NCBI RefSeq assembly: GCF_024138165.1
Contig: NZ_CP100000.1
Location: 1,426,001 to 1,490,000 of the forward strand
Direction: 5' to 3'
DNA: 64,000 bases
Source of the DNA: Halorussus vallis
GTDB taxonomy: Archaea; Halobacteriota; Halobacteria; Halobacteriales; Haladaptataceae
The position numbers and the translations under genes were made by a program. Below, piece after piece: positions 6,713-12,667 of this stretch (position 1 is the stretch's first letter; each line of letters opens with the position of its first letter). The notes beneath the pieces are model-generated. The model was not told where the DNA came from. It saw nothing but the letters and a program-made list of their open reading frames with translations, and did no database searches.

Positions 6713-8083
6713 CTAATCGTCGTCGTCCGCCGTAACGCTCGCCGGGGCGCCGTCGGGGAGCGCGCTCTCGGAGAGCTCGTCGGCGCCGTCCATCGCGCGC
6801 TCGACGAACTCCGGCGGACCGGCGTCGTCCTCCTCGCCGAAGTCGGGGTTGAACAGCTGGAGGGCGGTGTTGATGGTGGTCCAGTCGTCGTCGGCCGCGG
6901 CGTCGCGCAGGCTCTTGGTCGGGGCCGCGAGCAACTGGGAAACCAGCGCGTCGGCCATCGACTCGACCACGGCGCGCTGGTCGTCGCTCAGGTCGCCGTG
7001 GGCGTCGAGTTTCGAGAGCGCCTCGGAGAGTTCGCGGGCCTTGACCCGCTCGGCGCTCTCGTACATGGTCGAGATGACCTCGTCGGCGCGCTTGCGCTTG
7101 TAACCTTCGAGCAGGCGCTCGAACTCGCGGTCGATCATCGTTTCGACCGACTCGGCGGCCGCCCGGCGGCGGCGCTTCGTCTCGTCGGTGACCGACTCCA
7201 GGGCCGCCATGTCGTAGACGGTGACGCCGTCGAGCGCGCTCGCGGCGGGCGAGACGTCCCGCGGTTGAGCGATGTCGACGACGAGCGTCCGGCCGCGGTC
7301 GGCGAGCGTCCCGGCGTCGAGGACGTGGGACTCGCTGCCGGTCGCCGACACCACCACGTCGGCGGCGTCGAGCGCGGTGGCCAGCGCGTCGAGGCTCACC
7401 GCGCGGGCGTCGGCGGCGTCGACCTCCTCGGCCACGCCGGCCGCCCGTTCGACCGACCGGTTGGCGACGTACAGCGTCGCGACGTTCGCGTCGGCGAGCG
7501 CGTGGGCCGCGATGGTGCCCATCTCGCCCGCGCCGACGACGAGCGCCGTCGCGCCGTCGAGGTCGCGGTGCTCGTCGAGCAGCGACACCGCCGCGCTCCC
7601 GATGGAAACCGCGCCGTCGTTGATGGCGGTCTCGGTTCGGGCGCGCTCGCCGACGTGGATGGCCTTCGTCACCGCGTCGTCGAGCATCGGTCCGATGGCG
7701 CCGACCTCGCGGGCCGTCTCGTAGGCGCGCCGGACCTGGCCGATGATCTGGTCCTCGCCGACGACGAGCGATTCGAGTCCCGCCGCGACCCGCATGAGGT
7801 GGCGCAGGCTCTCCTCGTGGTTCATCTCGACGGTCGCGTGGCTCTCCATGTCGGGGGCGAAGTCGCCGAGGATCGCGCGACCGGTCGCGGCCGCGTCGGT
7901 GACGACGTAGGCCTCGAAGCGGTTGCACGTCTGGAGCACGTACGCCTCGCGGACGCCCGGCGCGTCGAGCAGTCGCCCGAGCGTGGTCGCCTCGTCGGCG
8001 TGGCAGGCGCTCGCGACGTCGTCGAGGCTCGCGCTCTCGTGGGTGACGCGCATCCCGGAGACCACGCCCGTCCCCGCCGTCAC
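6713..8083 (-). CDS. hemA: Glutamyl-tRNA reductase
   Basis: This 456-residue enzyme reduces glutamyl-tRNA(Glu) to glutamate-1-semialdehyde, the first committed step of tetrapyrrole synthesis. It has the catalytic cysteine in LQTCNRFEAY (residue 53), the binding segment VAAGLESLVVGEDQIIGQV, the NADPH loop VVGAGEMG and a C-terminal helical dimerisation domain. The GTG at 8083 is chosen because GGAGGT lies eight bases upstream and the product then starts like other haloarchaeal HemA proteins; an ATG 40 codons upstream would add an unrelated tail. A siroheme-pathway gene, often upstream of hemA in haloarchaea, is absent here. Confidence 0.95.
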   Translation of the reverse strand: MTAGTGVVSGMRVTHESASLDDVASACHADEATTLGRLLDAPGVREAYVLQTCNRFEAYVVTDAAATGRAILGDFAPDMESHATVEMNHEESLRHLMRVAAGLESLVVGEDQIIGQVRRAYETAREVGAIGPMLDDAVTKAIHVGERARTETAINDGAVSIGSAAVSLLDEHRDLDGATALVVGAGEMGTIAAHALADANVATLYVANRSVERAAGVAEEVDAADARAVSLDALATALDAADVVVSATGSESHVLDAGTLADRGRTLVVDIAQPRDVSPAASALDGVTVYDMAALESVTDETKRRRRAAAESVETMIDREFERLLEGYKRKRADEVISTMYESAERVKARELSEALSKLDAHGDLSDDQRAVVESMADALVSQLLAAPTKSLRDAAADDDWTTINTALQLFNPDFGEEDDAGPPEFVERAMDGADELSESALPDGAPASVTADDDD

Positions 8084-8091
8084 GGATACCG

Positions 8092-8097
8092 ACCTCC
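8092..8097 (-). promoter_or_regulatory. Shine-Dalgarno that decides the hemA start
   Basis: GGAGGT on the minus strand is followed by eight bases and the GTG at 8083. It supports the shorter HemA. Confidence 0.7.
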
Positions 8098-8257
8098 CGA
8101 GAGTGTACCGGATAGTTTCCAGGTCATGTTTGCACCCTGCGGACGACACCGTCCGCTCCGTTCTTAGCGGGTCTAGGAATGGCCGGTACGTAAAGCCTTT
8201 CAAACGAAACAGATTCCGCCGGTGTCTCGGAGAGCGTGCCGGTCTTGCCCGACGATG

Positions 8258-8662
8258 TCACTCGCCTTCGACGCCCGTCACTTCGAAGCCGAGTTCGCGG
8301 ACACCTTCGAGCACCGCCTCGTGGTCGGCGCTGGCCTCGTAGTAGAACACCACGTCGAACGTCCCGTCGCGGAGCAGTTGCTGGCACTCCCAGATGAACG
8401 CCTCGTCGTCCAGGGTCAGTCCCTGGTGCTGGTTCGACGCGAAGTCGGTGTCGTCGGTCCCCGAGTAGACGTAGGTGTCCCGGGGGTCGTGGCCCGCGGC
8501 CTCGGCGATGACCTCACCCACGTCGACGGTCATCTGGTGCATCTCGATGTCCTCGTCGCTCCCGTAGTCGGTGTGGACGATGGCGCCGTTGAGTTCGATA
8601 TCGCCGGGTTCGAGCAACTGCTTGGTGCGCCGATACAGGTCGTCGTCGAGCACGTCGGTCAT
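8258..8662 (-). CDS. DUF5778 family protein
   Basis: This is a 134-residue acidic soluble protein. Segments such as LNGAIVHTDYGSDED, DTYVYSGTDDTDFASNQHQG and FDVVFYYEAS match my memory of the haloarchaeal DUF5778 family, which often lies beside hemA. It is 174 bases upstream of hemA on the same strand. No biochemical function is known and no catalytic motif stands out. The name rests on remembered family sequences. Confidence 0.75.
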   Translation of the reverse strand: MTDVLDDDLYRRTKQLLEPGDIELNGAIVHTDYGSDEDIEMHQMTVDVGEVIAEAAGHDPRDTYVYSGTDDTDFASNQHQGLTLDDEAFIWECQQLLRDGTFDVVFYYEASADHEAVLEGVRELGFEVTGVEGE

Positions 8663-8812
8663 ACTCGAACCGAACCGACGGGCGACTATACGCCCTGCGG
8701 TTCCGACGGAGCGACCGAAAGTGACGCCGGACGAGAGCGGCGGAACCGACGAGGCCGCCGCTACCCGAGTGGCGTCTCCAGAAATTGCTTCGTTTTTGCG
8801 AGCCGTTACCGT

Positions 8813-9007
8813 CTACAGGCGCGTGACGTTCGTCGCGCGCGGGCCTTTGTCGGCCTGTTCGATGTCGAACTCTACTTCCTGTCCTTCTTCGAGGTCGGGG
8901 CCGCCAACGTCTTCCATGTGGAAGAAAACGTCCTCGTCCGCGTCCTCAGTGTCGATGAATCCGTAGCCGCCAGTCTCGTTGAAGAAATCAACCGTACCTT
9001 TCGCCAT
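8813..9007 (-). CDS. cspA: Cold-shock domain protein
   Basis: This 64-residue single OB-fold protein begins MAKGTVDFFNETGGYGFIDT and carries both RNA-binding motifs (YGFI and DVFFHM). Haloarchaeal versions are acidic, as here. It binds single-stranded nucleic acid as an RNA chaperone. A strong TATA-like box directly upstream supports this start over a longer ATG at 9166 that would run through the promoter. Confidence 0.96.
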   Translation of the reverse strand: MAKGTVDFFNETGGYGFIDTEDADEDVFFHMEDVGGPDLEEGQEVEFDIEQADKGPRATNVTRL

Positions 9008-9031
9008 TGCGTTCGTCTCAAGACGCCCCAT

Positions 9032-9041
9032 ACTTAAAAAG
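9032..9041 (-). promoter_or_regulatory. TATA-like box for the cold-shock gene
   Basis: On the minus strand TTTTTAAGTA lies about 30 bases before the ATG at 9007, giving a very short or absent leader. Confidence 0.6.
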
Positions 9042-9150
9042 GTATGCAAATCCCGGGTGAGTTGTGTTAACAGTAGACTCGCACTTTCGGGTCGCGCGCT
9101 CGGCGGTGCATAACGTTGATGGCTCTCCGAAACCTCGGTCCGACTGACCG

Positions 9151-10071
9151 ATGTTACGGTGGGCACGGCGACGGACGCGAGCCGCGTACGAGCGACTGCT
9201 CCGACGGGAGATATCCGGCGCGCCGACGCACGTGGCGGTGATCCAGGACGGTAACCGCCGGTACGCCAGCATGCAGGGCGGCGACGCCCCGGACGGCCAC
9301 CGCGCCGGCGCGGAGACGACCGAGCGAGTCCTCGAATGGTGCGAGGAACTCGGCGTCGAGGAACTGACGCTGTACGCCTTCTCGACCGAGAACTTCGAGC
9401 GCCCCGAACACGAACGCGACGCCCTCTTCGACCTGCTCGAGGAGAAACTCTACGAGTTCGGCGACGACGAGCAGGTCCACGACGGCGAGGTCTGCATCCG
9501 GGCCATCGGCGACGTCGCGCGCCTCCCCGAACGCGTCCGCGAGGCGGTCCGGTACGCCGAGCGCCGGACCGCCGACTACGACGAGTTCACGCTCAACGTC
9601 GCGCTCGCCTACGGCGGCCGCAACGAACTCCTCGGGGCGGCCCGCGACGTGGCCCGCGCCGTCGAGTCCGGCGACCTCGAACCCGAAGACATCGACGTGG
9701 CCGAGATCGAGTCGCGCATCTACGACCGCCCGCTCCGGGACGTCGACCTCATCATCCGGACCGGCGGCGACGAGCGCACCTCCAACTTCCTGCCGTGGCA
9801 CGCCAACGGCAACGAGGCCGCCGTCTTCTTCTGTACGCCCTACTGGCCAGAGTTCTCGAAGGTCGACTTCCTGCGGGGAATCCGGACCTACGAGTCCCGC
9901 GAGGAGTCCTGGCGGCAGGCCAGAGTCAAGCGCGCACTGGCGCTGGTCAAGGAACTGGGCGGCGTCGAACTTGACGACGCCCGTGCTGTCATCGAGAAGT
10001 TCCGAGACGCGGTTCCGGAAGGAGCTAGCGTCGAGGAGTTGGACGCCGACGGCGAACGCCCCGCGGAGTAA
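9151..10071 (+). CDS. uppS: cis-Prenyltransferase, catalytic type (UppS/DHDDS family)
   Basis: This 306-residue enzyme should elongate an allylic diphosphate with isopentenyl diphosphate to a polyprenyl diphosphate used as glycan carrier lipid (dolichol in archaea). It has the catalytic QDGNRRYA (D33), TLYAFSTENFERP, LNVALAYGGRNEL and the pyrophosphate-binding RTGGDERTSNFLPW. It lacks the C-terminal R-x-G motif; after WPEFSKVDFLRGI the tail is a long helix and acidic extension. The convergent neighbour has the opposite pattern (R-x-G present, DGNR absent), suggesting a heteromeric enzyme. Confidence 0.93.
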   Translation: MLRWARRRTRAAYERLLRREISGAPTHVAVIQDGNRRYASMQGGDAPDGHRAGAETTERVLEWCEELGVEELTLYAFSTENFERPEHERDALFDLLEEKLYEFGDDEQVHDGEVCIRAIGDVARLPERVREAVRYAERRTADYDEFTLNVALAYGGRNELLGAARDVARAVESGDLEPEDIDVAEIESRIYDRPLRDVDLIIRTGGDERTSNFLPWHANGNEAAVFFCTPYWPEFSKVDFLRGIRTYESREESWRQARVKRALALVKELGGVELDDARAVIEKFRDAVPEGASVEELDADGERPAE

Positions 10072-10181
10072 GGGCCGATTCTACCGGCCGAACTTACGTC
10101 AGGAGCGTAGCGAAGTGACGGCGTTCGACTTACCGACCGAACCGCCGGAAGACTCGCTCCGCTCACCTTCCGAGCTTCGAC

Positions 10182-10790
10182 CTACCGACCGAATCGCCGC
10201 TGGCGATTCTTGTAGTCCAGTAGCGCCCGCAGGTAGTCGCGCTTGCGGAAGTCCCGCCAGTTCACGTCGGTGAAGTAGAGTTCGGAGTACACCGACTGCC
10301 AGATCATGAAGTCCGAGAGGCGCTCGGCGCCGGTCTTCAGCACGAGGTCGGGGTTTTCGGGGAACACCAGGTGCTCTTCGACCTCCGTCTCGCCGACCTC
10401 GTCGGGCGAGACGTCGCCGGCCTGCACGCTCTCGGCGATCTTTCGAACCGCCCCGGCGAACTCGTGTTTGCCGCCGAGGCCGATGGAGATCTGGAGCGGC
10501 GCGTCGGCCCGCCGGGTGTCGTCGGGGCCGCGAACAGCCAGTTGGCGCGGCGCGGCCACGTTCTCCAGTTCGCGTTTGAGGGTCGGCACCGCGCCCGAGT
10601 CCAGCACCGAGATGTACACCGTCACGCGCTCGGCGCCACGCTCGAACGCCCACCCGAAGAAGCGCTCCAGCGTCCGGTAAGCGCCCTGTTCGAGCAGGTC
10701 GCGCTCCGTGATGACCACGGCGACGTGGCGGGGCGGGTCGGCGTCGTGGCGGCGGAGACGGGCGGCGAGATATCGGTCGTACAGTCCCAC
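10182..10790 (-). CDS. cis-Prenyltransferase paralogue lacking the catalytic DGNR motif
   Basis: This is a 202-residue protein of the same family. Where the active enzyme reads VAVIQDGNRRYA it reads VAVVITERDLLEQGAY, so the catalytic Asp-Gly-Asn-Arg is lost. It retains the fold (ISIGLGGKHEFAGAV, LKTGAERLSDFMIW) and ends with QRRFGR, containing the C-terminal R-x-G motif missing from the 9151-10071 product. In eukaryotes a non-catalytic NgBR/Nus1 subunit supplies R-x-G to catalytic DHDDS; by analogy this may be the accessory subunit. I use the GTG (10790), giving the N-terminus MGLYDRYLAARL. The gene ends converge 110 bases apart. Confidence 0.85.
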   Translation of the reverse strand: MGLYDRYLAARLRRHDADPPRHVAVVITERDLLEQGAYRTLERFFGWAFERGAERVTVYISVLDSGAVPTLKRELENVAAPRQLAVRGPDDTRRADAPLQISIGLGGKHEFAGAVRKIAESVQAGDVSPDEVGETEVEEHLVFPENPDLVLKTGAERLSDFMIWQSVYSELYFTDVNWRDFRKRDYLRALLDYKNRQRRFGR

Positions 10791-10932
10791 GCGCGGCGGT
10801 TCGCACGCTATCGTCCTAAACGTCACGAACCGAATCGGCGAAAACGTACGCTCCGAATCGGGGAGGTTTCCGACTGTGACGACTCAGACAGTTGGTACTC
10901 GGAGAGAGCGACGAAAACTCCAACTGCAACCG

Positions 10933-11356: not shown

Positions 11357-12667
11357 GTGACTACGAGAGTCCGGCGGGCGGCCGGCTACGCGGTCGTCTC
11401 GACGCTGTCGCTCGCCGCTCCGACGCTCGGGTGGGCGACCGCCGTCGCCTACGCCGCCGTCGCCGTGGGGGCGCTTGCCGTCACCGACGGGCCGCTGTTC
11501 GAACTGTTCGCGCGGCCCACAGACCGGCAGGAAGGCCGACTCCACGGACTGGCGGGGTTCGCCTTCGCCGCGACGGGACTGGCGTTGCTGACCACGCTGA
11601 TGACGCTCCCCGCGCGGGTGTTCGTCGCCAGCGTCGTCCTGCTCGGTTTCGGGAACCTCGCCCAGCAGGTGGTCGGCGAGTACTCCAACGAGTCGATAGC
11701 CCAGGTCACCGCCTTCGTCTTCGGCGGGTTCCTCGCGGCGGTCGCCGGCCAGGCCGCCACGCTCGCCCTGGAGGGAACCCCGGTCGCCGGTGCGCTCCCC
11801 GAGATGGCCTTCCTCGCGGCCAGCGGCGTCCTTCTCGCCGGGCTCCTCCGGTCGGTGCTGTTCGCCCGCGACGACCCGCTGGTGATGCTCTCGGCCGCGA
11901 TGCTGCTGTGGCTGTTCGCCGACCTCGCCGTCGAGGTCACCCTGACCAGCGTCGCGGTCGCCATCGCGGTGACCGCGCTGTTCGGCTACGTTTCGTGGGC
12001 GCTCGACGCCGCCTCGATTCCGGGGATGCTCACCGGCGAACTGCTGGCGATGCTCACCATCGTGCTGGGCGGCTACGGCTGGTTCGCCGTCCTCATCGCC
12101 TTCTTCGGCATCGGGAGCCTCTCGACGAAGTTCCGCTACGACCAGAAACTGGACCGCGGCGTCGCCCAGGAGAACGACGGCGCGCGCGGCAGCGGCAACG
12201 TCCTCGGGAATGCGGCGGTCGCGCTCGTCGCGGTGCTCGCCTACGCCGCCCGCGGAAAGCTCCCCGGCGACGGCACGCTGTTCCTGTTCGCGTTCGCCGG
12301 CTCCATCGCCACCGCGATGAGCGACACCCTGTCGAGCGAGATCGGCGGCGTCTTCGACGACCCCCGGCTCATCACCACCCTCAAACGCGTCGAACCCGGC
12401 ACCGACGGCGGCGTGACCTGGCAGGGCGAACTCGCGGGCGTCGCCGGAGCGGCCGTCGTCGCGGCCATCGCCGCGGGGCTGTTCGAGAGCGTCGACCTCG
12501 TCGGCGCGGCGGTCATCGTGCTGGCCGGCGCCGGCGGGATGACCATGGACAGCCTGCTCGGCGCGACGCTGGAAGGCGACCGCCTCGGTAATCAGGCGGT
12601 CAACTTCCTCGCGACGCTCACCGGCGCACTTTTGGGTTCGGCGCTCGCTGTAGTCGTCCTGACGTGA
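11357..12667 (+). CDS. DUF92 integral membrane protein (VTE6/phytyl-phosphate-kinase-like)
   Basis: This 436-residue protein has about eleven hydrophobic helices and the DUF92 signature region: GFGSLST-like FGIGSLSTKFRYDQK, GNVLGNAAVA, GSIATAMSDTLSSEIGG and GGMTMDSLLGATLEGD. Plant VTE6 of this family phosphorylates phytyl phosphate, so a polyprenyl or geranylgeranyl phosphate kinase role is plausible. Its place next to two cis-prenyltransferase genes fits isoprenoid lipid work but does not prove it. The GTG start follows a TATA-like box at leaderless spacing. The stop overlaps the next gene's GTG (GTGA), so translation is probably coupled. Confidence 0.85.
   Translation: MTTRVRRAAGYAVVSTLSLAAPTLGWATAVAYAAVAVGALAVTDGPLFELFARPTDRQEGRLHGLAGFAFAATGLALLTTLMTLPARVFVASVVLLGFGNLAQQVVGEYSNESIAQVTAFVFGGFLAAVAGQAATLALEGTPVAGALPEMAFLAASGVLLAGLLRSVLFARDDPLVMLSAAMLLWLFADLAVEVTLTSVAVAIAVTALFGYVSWALDAASIPGMLTGELLAMLTIVLGGYGWFAVLIAFFGIGSLSTKFRYDQKLDRGVAQENDGARGSGNVLGNAAVALVAVLAYAARGKLPGDGTLFLFAFAGSIATAMSDTLSSEIGGVFDDPRLITTLKRVEPGTDGGVTWQGELAGVAGAAVVAAIAAGLFESVDLVGAAVIVLAGAGGMTMDSLLGATLEGDRLGNQAVNFLATLTGALLGSALAVVVLT

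Follow-up and report, generated by a model that had tools for sequence, protein, structure and literature searches.

Do the two adjacent cis-prenyltransferase-family genes at this Halorussus vallis locus encode redundant isozymes, or do they encode two parts of one enzyme? General profiles file both haloarchaeal genes under undecaprenyl diphosphate synthase, and a genome-wide search returned P0001 and P0002 as the only PF01255 members in the whole genome. In the window (the whole stretch of 64,000 nucleotides that was analysed), the two genes are convergent and separated by a gap of 110 bp, and P0002 is divergent from a DUF92 gene (Table 1). The closest homologous loci are those of Halorussus, in which P0002 identity is 81-83%. 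Upstream of P0001, positions 8258-9166 of the minus strand hold genes for a cold-shock-domain protein and a DUF5778 protein, beyond which glutamyl-tRNA reductase is encoded at 6713-8203; these are ordinary genes. A promoter and terminator scan, of a type not suited to archaea, found nothing.

Table 1. Features of the cis-prenyltransferase locus, in window coordinates.
Feature	Coordinates	Strand	Basis and remarks
P0001, probable catalytic (DHDDS-like) cis-prenyltransferase subunit	9151..10071	+	306 aa; PF01255 match
DGNRR catalytic motif, P0001 residues 33-37	9247..9261	+	sequence; invariant in 72/72 catalytic sequences
S253-W254-R255 of P0001, at the place of the missing R-x-G	9907..9915	+	aligned to E. 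coli UppS R242-F243-G244
P0002, probable NgBR-like non-catalytic subunit	10182..10826	-	ORF from GTG 10826, 214 aa
TERDL replacing DGNRR, P0002 residues 40-44	10695..10709	-	alignment; (T/A)ERDLL kept in haloarchaeal orthologues
C-terminal RRFGR with R-x-G, P0002 residues 210-214	10185..10199	-	R 71/73, G 73/73 partner sequences
P0003, DUF92 (PF01940) membrane protein, VTE6/cytidylyltransferase-like	11357..12667	+	PF01940 193 bits; divergent from P0002

The PF01255 match of P0001 spans positions 1-216 of 219 (228 bits), and the protein passes the cut-off of TIGR00055 (NCBIfam uppS) despite having no R-x-G. When aligned with E. coli UppS (L227), it has the residues D26, G27, N28, R30, H43, F70, S71, E73, N74, R77, R194, R200, S202 and E213. 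The tail of P0001 contains no R-x-G: the original prediction, that this protein carries DGNRR and lacks the C-terminal motif, is borne out by the sequence, which reads S-W-R at that position. The structure model of P0001 has a pLDDT of 87, and its top fold match is the human cis-prenyltransferase complex.

P0002 matches PF01255 by its C-terminal half only (108-219, 94 bits). In the alignment, ITERDLLEQG of P0002 lies opposite QDGNRRYAS of P0001, and relative to E. coli UppS the protein has gaps at R39, H43, N74 and R77 and shows R-F-G at the C-terminal motif; sequence and alignment thus agree with the earlier reading of a protein that has ITERDLLEQG for DGNR and ends in RRFGR. Two GTG codons are candidate starts, at 10826 (214 aa) and at 10790 (202 aa). 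The latter is likely the true start, judging from the sequence, because homologues begin with MGLY near residue 13 and because the end coordinate given in the original prediction agrees with it. The structure model of P0002 (pLDDT 84) has the cis-prenyltransferase fold, as confirmed by a fold search, and NgBR was not among the 50 matches listed in that search. In the models, the stretch between two central strands spans 37 residues in P0002 versus 67 in P0001; in active enzymes this interval bears a tunnel-forming helix.

Sequences of both kinds, 72 catalytic and 73 partner, were aligned from haloarchaea and from elsewhere in the phylum, with positions numbered as in E. coli UppS. Ten positions (D26, G27, N28, R30, S71, N74, R77, R194, R200 and S202) are invariant in the 72 catalytic sequences, and the glycine of R-x-G is not among the residues common at its position. 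In the 73 partner sequences the DGN-R set, N74 and R77 are lost, and of the R-x-G motif the arginine is kept in 71 and the glycine in all. Among haloarchaeal sequences of the P0002 type (n = 93) none has DGNR, and all end in R-(F/Y)-G followed by one residue. The split of DGNR and R-x-G between two proteins is real, not due to chance, and is general across the phylum. Loss of the catalytic motif would also be seen if P0002 were a decaying, functionless duplicate; however, the gene is intact and strongly constrained phylum-wide, its R-x-G being near-complete, and this explanation is barely credible. P0002 as a pseudogene was rejected on these grounds.

The partner family retains some substrate-site positions: R194 is K or R in 71 of 73 sequences and E213 is kept in 73 of 73. 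Such residues might be needless in a pure scaffold, and their retention was counted against the heteromer reading. Of the 73 sequences, 61 have an Asp three positions past the site of the lost catalytic one. This Asp and the conserved C-terminal positions would suit a P0002 with an enzymatic or binding role of its own, unconnected with the P0001 reaction, perhaps as a homodimer that relies on a different acidic residue. However, P0002 has lost N74, R77 and the greater part of the primer-binding site, the interval between its central strands is shortened, and its Methanosarcina orthologue is part of a reported heteromer (PMC8131916); a separate function of this kind is very improbable.

As for distribution, each of the 145 haloarchaeal genomes in the sample contains two or more PF01255 members, one of them a strong full-length match. 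A P0002 orthologue was found in 143 of them at 1e-25, and in the two genomes without a match at this threshold (G006 and G054) a second PF01255 member was nevertheless matched. In G001 there is a third PF01255 copy (L214:1989-3854, minus strand), a divergent one with DGHRRYADERG and a very long open frame. In the phylum sample, both kinds of gene are present in 68 of 70 genomes. The other two (G151 and G159, from one genus) have neither, also when searched with purpose-built profiles of both kinds; this joint absence fits a joint function, with the caveat that both genomes are drafts, ~91% complete. Among the 51 genomes of family f13 (Methanosarcina and relatives), there are two apparent exceptions: in G203 the partner fragment sits on another contig, and in G223, a draft, the catalytic gene is present and the partner undetectable, genomes of the same genus having two matches. 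The case of G223 was counted against the heteromer reading. In the fragmented assembly G205, the partner is intact and the catalytic gene was seen solely as broken fragments. The catalytic copy at L225 of this genome is broken by internal stops; its sister genome, G162, carries two catalytic copies, both intact. Co-occurrence, proposed earlier as a check, was followed over about 246 genomes, and no convincing case of one gene without the other was found in close relatives. A mirror-tree test with DUF92 as control gave similar correlations for all three pairs and no specific signal, which was also counted against the heteromer reading.

In the tree, the partner clade has an SH-aLRT of 99 and the catalytic clade one of 91. 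P0001 and the Methanosarcina protein L217 fall in the catalytic clade, P0002 and L219 fall in the partner clade, and the MM_0014-like proteins stand apart from both. These Methanosarcina sequences come from G209, a genome of family f13 with three PF01255 members, taken as Methanosarcina because its L218 is nearly identical to the crystallised M. mazei MM_0014 (441 bits over 220 residues). Since the genes of the window and those of Methanosarcina are paired in two clades, the duplication predates the split between these methanogens and haloarchaea; the two-gene arrangement is real and very old. M. mazei MM_0618 and MM_1083 reportedly make up a heteromeric cis-prenyltransferase with C45-50 products (Emi et al. 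2019, as cited in PMC8131916), and by elimination, after MM_0014, L217 and L219 are their counterparts. According to the same source, the M. mazei pair resembles the present one in consisting of two PF01255 proteins with a role in glycosyl carrier lipid formation; a heteromeric cis-prenyltransferase is thus not new for archaea, one having been reported from a related archaeon. The layouts differ: in G209 the two genes of the M. mazei-type pair are widely separated and the partner has no DUF92 gene next to it; in haloarchaea all three usually lie together. What is added here is the breadth of the system in haloarchaea and its fixed convergent layout, this kind of system being already known.

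The same division of DGNR and R-x-G between two proteins exists in human DHDDS/NgBR (NUS1). The chain of human NgBR stops one residue past the R-x-G glycine, as in P0002, and its terminal carboxylate, together with the main chain of the two preceding residues, makes contacts inside the active site of DHDDS (PMC7573591). P0002, in which no hydrophobic segment precedes the domain, does not show the N-terminal membrane domain that NgBR has. The bacterial homodimeric enzyme E. coli UppS is alike in fold and reaction type but carries DGN and R-x-G on one chain, while here they are on two; neither P0001 nor P0002 has both motifs on one chain, as a homodimeric UppS does.

The DHDDS/NgBR-like partnership put forward in the original prediction is supported by the complementarity of residues, by co-occurrence across the phylum and by orthology to the Methanosarcina pair. 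P0001 and P0002 are very probably the two subunits of one heteromeric cis-prenyltransferase, in which the tail of P0002 completes the P0001 site. From the motif split, the fold, the orthology and the co-occurrence, we infer a physical complex, insertion of the tail and a product as follows. P0001 would bind the allylic primer, isopentenyl diphosphate and Mg via DGNRR and a catalytic site that is complete except for the C-terminal R-x-G. P0002 would be a pseudo-enzyme of the same fold, having lost the catalytic Asp and ~30 residues of the product-tunnel part; it would pair with P0001, giving half of the dimer surface, and its C-terminal RRFGR would cross the interface and complete the P0001 active site, in the way that DHDDS is completed by the NgBR tail. 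The product would be a long polyprenyl diphosphate, leading to dolichyl phosphate, the glycan carrier. With one gene catalytic and the other a pseudo-enzyme supplying the missing motif, the redundant-isozyme reading would therefore be misleading.

The main rival to this two-subunit enzyme is a P0001 that works alone as a homodimer, P0002 being a mere enhancer or regulatory partner that is dispensable for catalysis. Human DHDDS homodimers do have weak activity, ~400-fold below that of the complex (PMC7573591), and every catalytic residue other than R-x-G is present in P0001. However, R-x-G is missing from P0001 and its orthologues alike, and P0002 is kept in all haloarchaeal genomes sampled and is missing exactly where the catalytic gene is missing; we consider a self-sufficient P0001 improbable. 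Because Haloferax is genetically tractable, the hand-over of R-x-G between heteromer subunits is testable in a living archaeon.

The comparison with eukaryotes raises the question of origin. Among solved structures in the PDB, the catalytic-clade profile scores best with human DHDDS (1.4e-72), and no bacterial UPPS scores as well. The partner profile scores better with bacterial UPPS (~1e-34) than with human NUS1 (~1e-10), because the archaeal partner kept a UPPS-like C-terminal half. The DHDDS-first match of the catalytic profile and the position of both archaeal subunits in deep, separate clades are points in favour of an archaeal origin. The archaeal and eukaryotic heteromers may share a common ancestor; the more specific proposal, that the split enzyme is older than Halobacteriota and that eukaryotic DHDDS/NgBR descends from such a two-subunit enzyme of archaea instead of having arisen separately, is tentative and, in our view, doubtful. 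Because the pair spans the phylum, with one genus devoid of both genes, Asgard genomes offer a test of how the eukaryotic heteromer arose.

At the level of gene order, the cis-prenyltransferase pair is convergent in 87 of 87 neighbouring loci (69 haloarchaeal and 18 other), these counts covering pairs that adjoin within the stretch read at each locus. Such constant convergence would not be expected of proteins that act in a single complex, since no common transcript is possible, and the arrangement as convergent genes rather than one operon was counted against the heteromer reading.

The DUF92 gene, which the original prediction placed about 570 bases further on, indeed starts 566 bp beyond the P0002 GTG at 10790. 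DUF92 adjoins the partner gene in 76 of 80 haloarchaeal loci and in 25 of 56 other loci, is divergent from it in all 101, and is single-copy in each of the 70 phylum genomes. This fixed divergent placement and the single copy point to a linked step in polyprenol metabolism. For DUF92 (arCOG02245), uppS has been described as the single conserved context and a kinase step in isoprenoid metabolism has been proposed (Makarova et al. 2015, PMC5898192); compared with that DUF92-uppS link, the present counts make the NgBR-like gene the immediate neighbour of DUF92. According to Lombard 2016 (PMC5088576), the closing steps in the archaeal route to dolichol phosphate have yet to be assigned. DUF92 is kept without the cis-prenyltransferases in G151 and G159 (loci L232 and L233), so that it is probably not a subunit of the cis-prenyltransferase; the idea of DUF92 as an obligate third component is weakened by its persistence where both cis-prenyltransferase genes are missing. 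At these two loci, DUF92 lies beside a gene that resembles, by eye, one for a TATA-binding protein.
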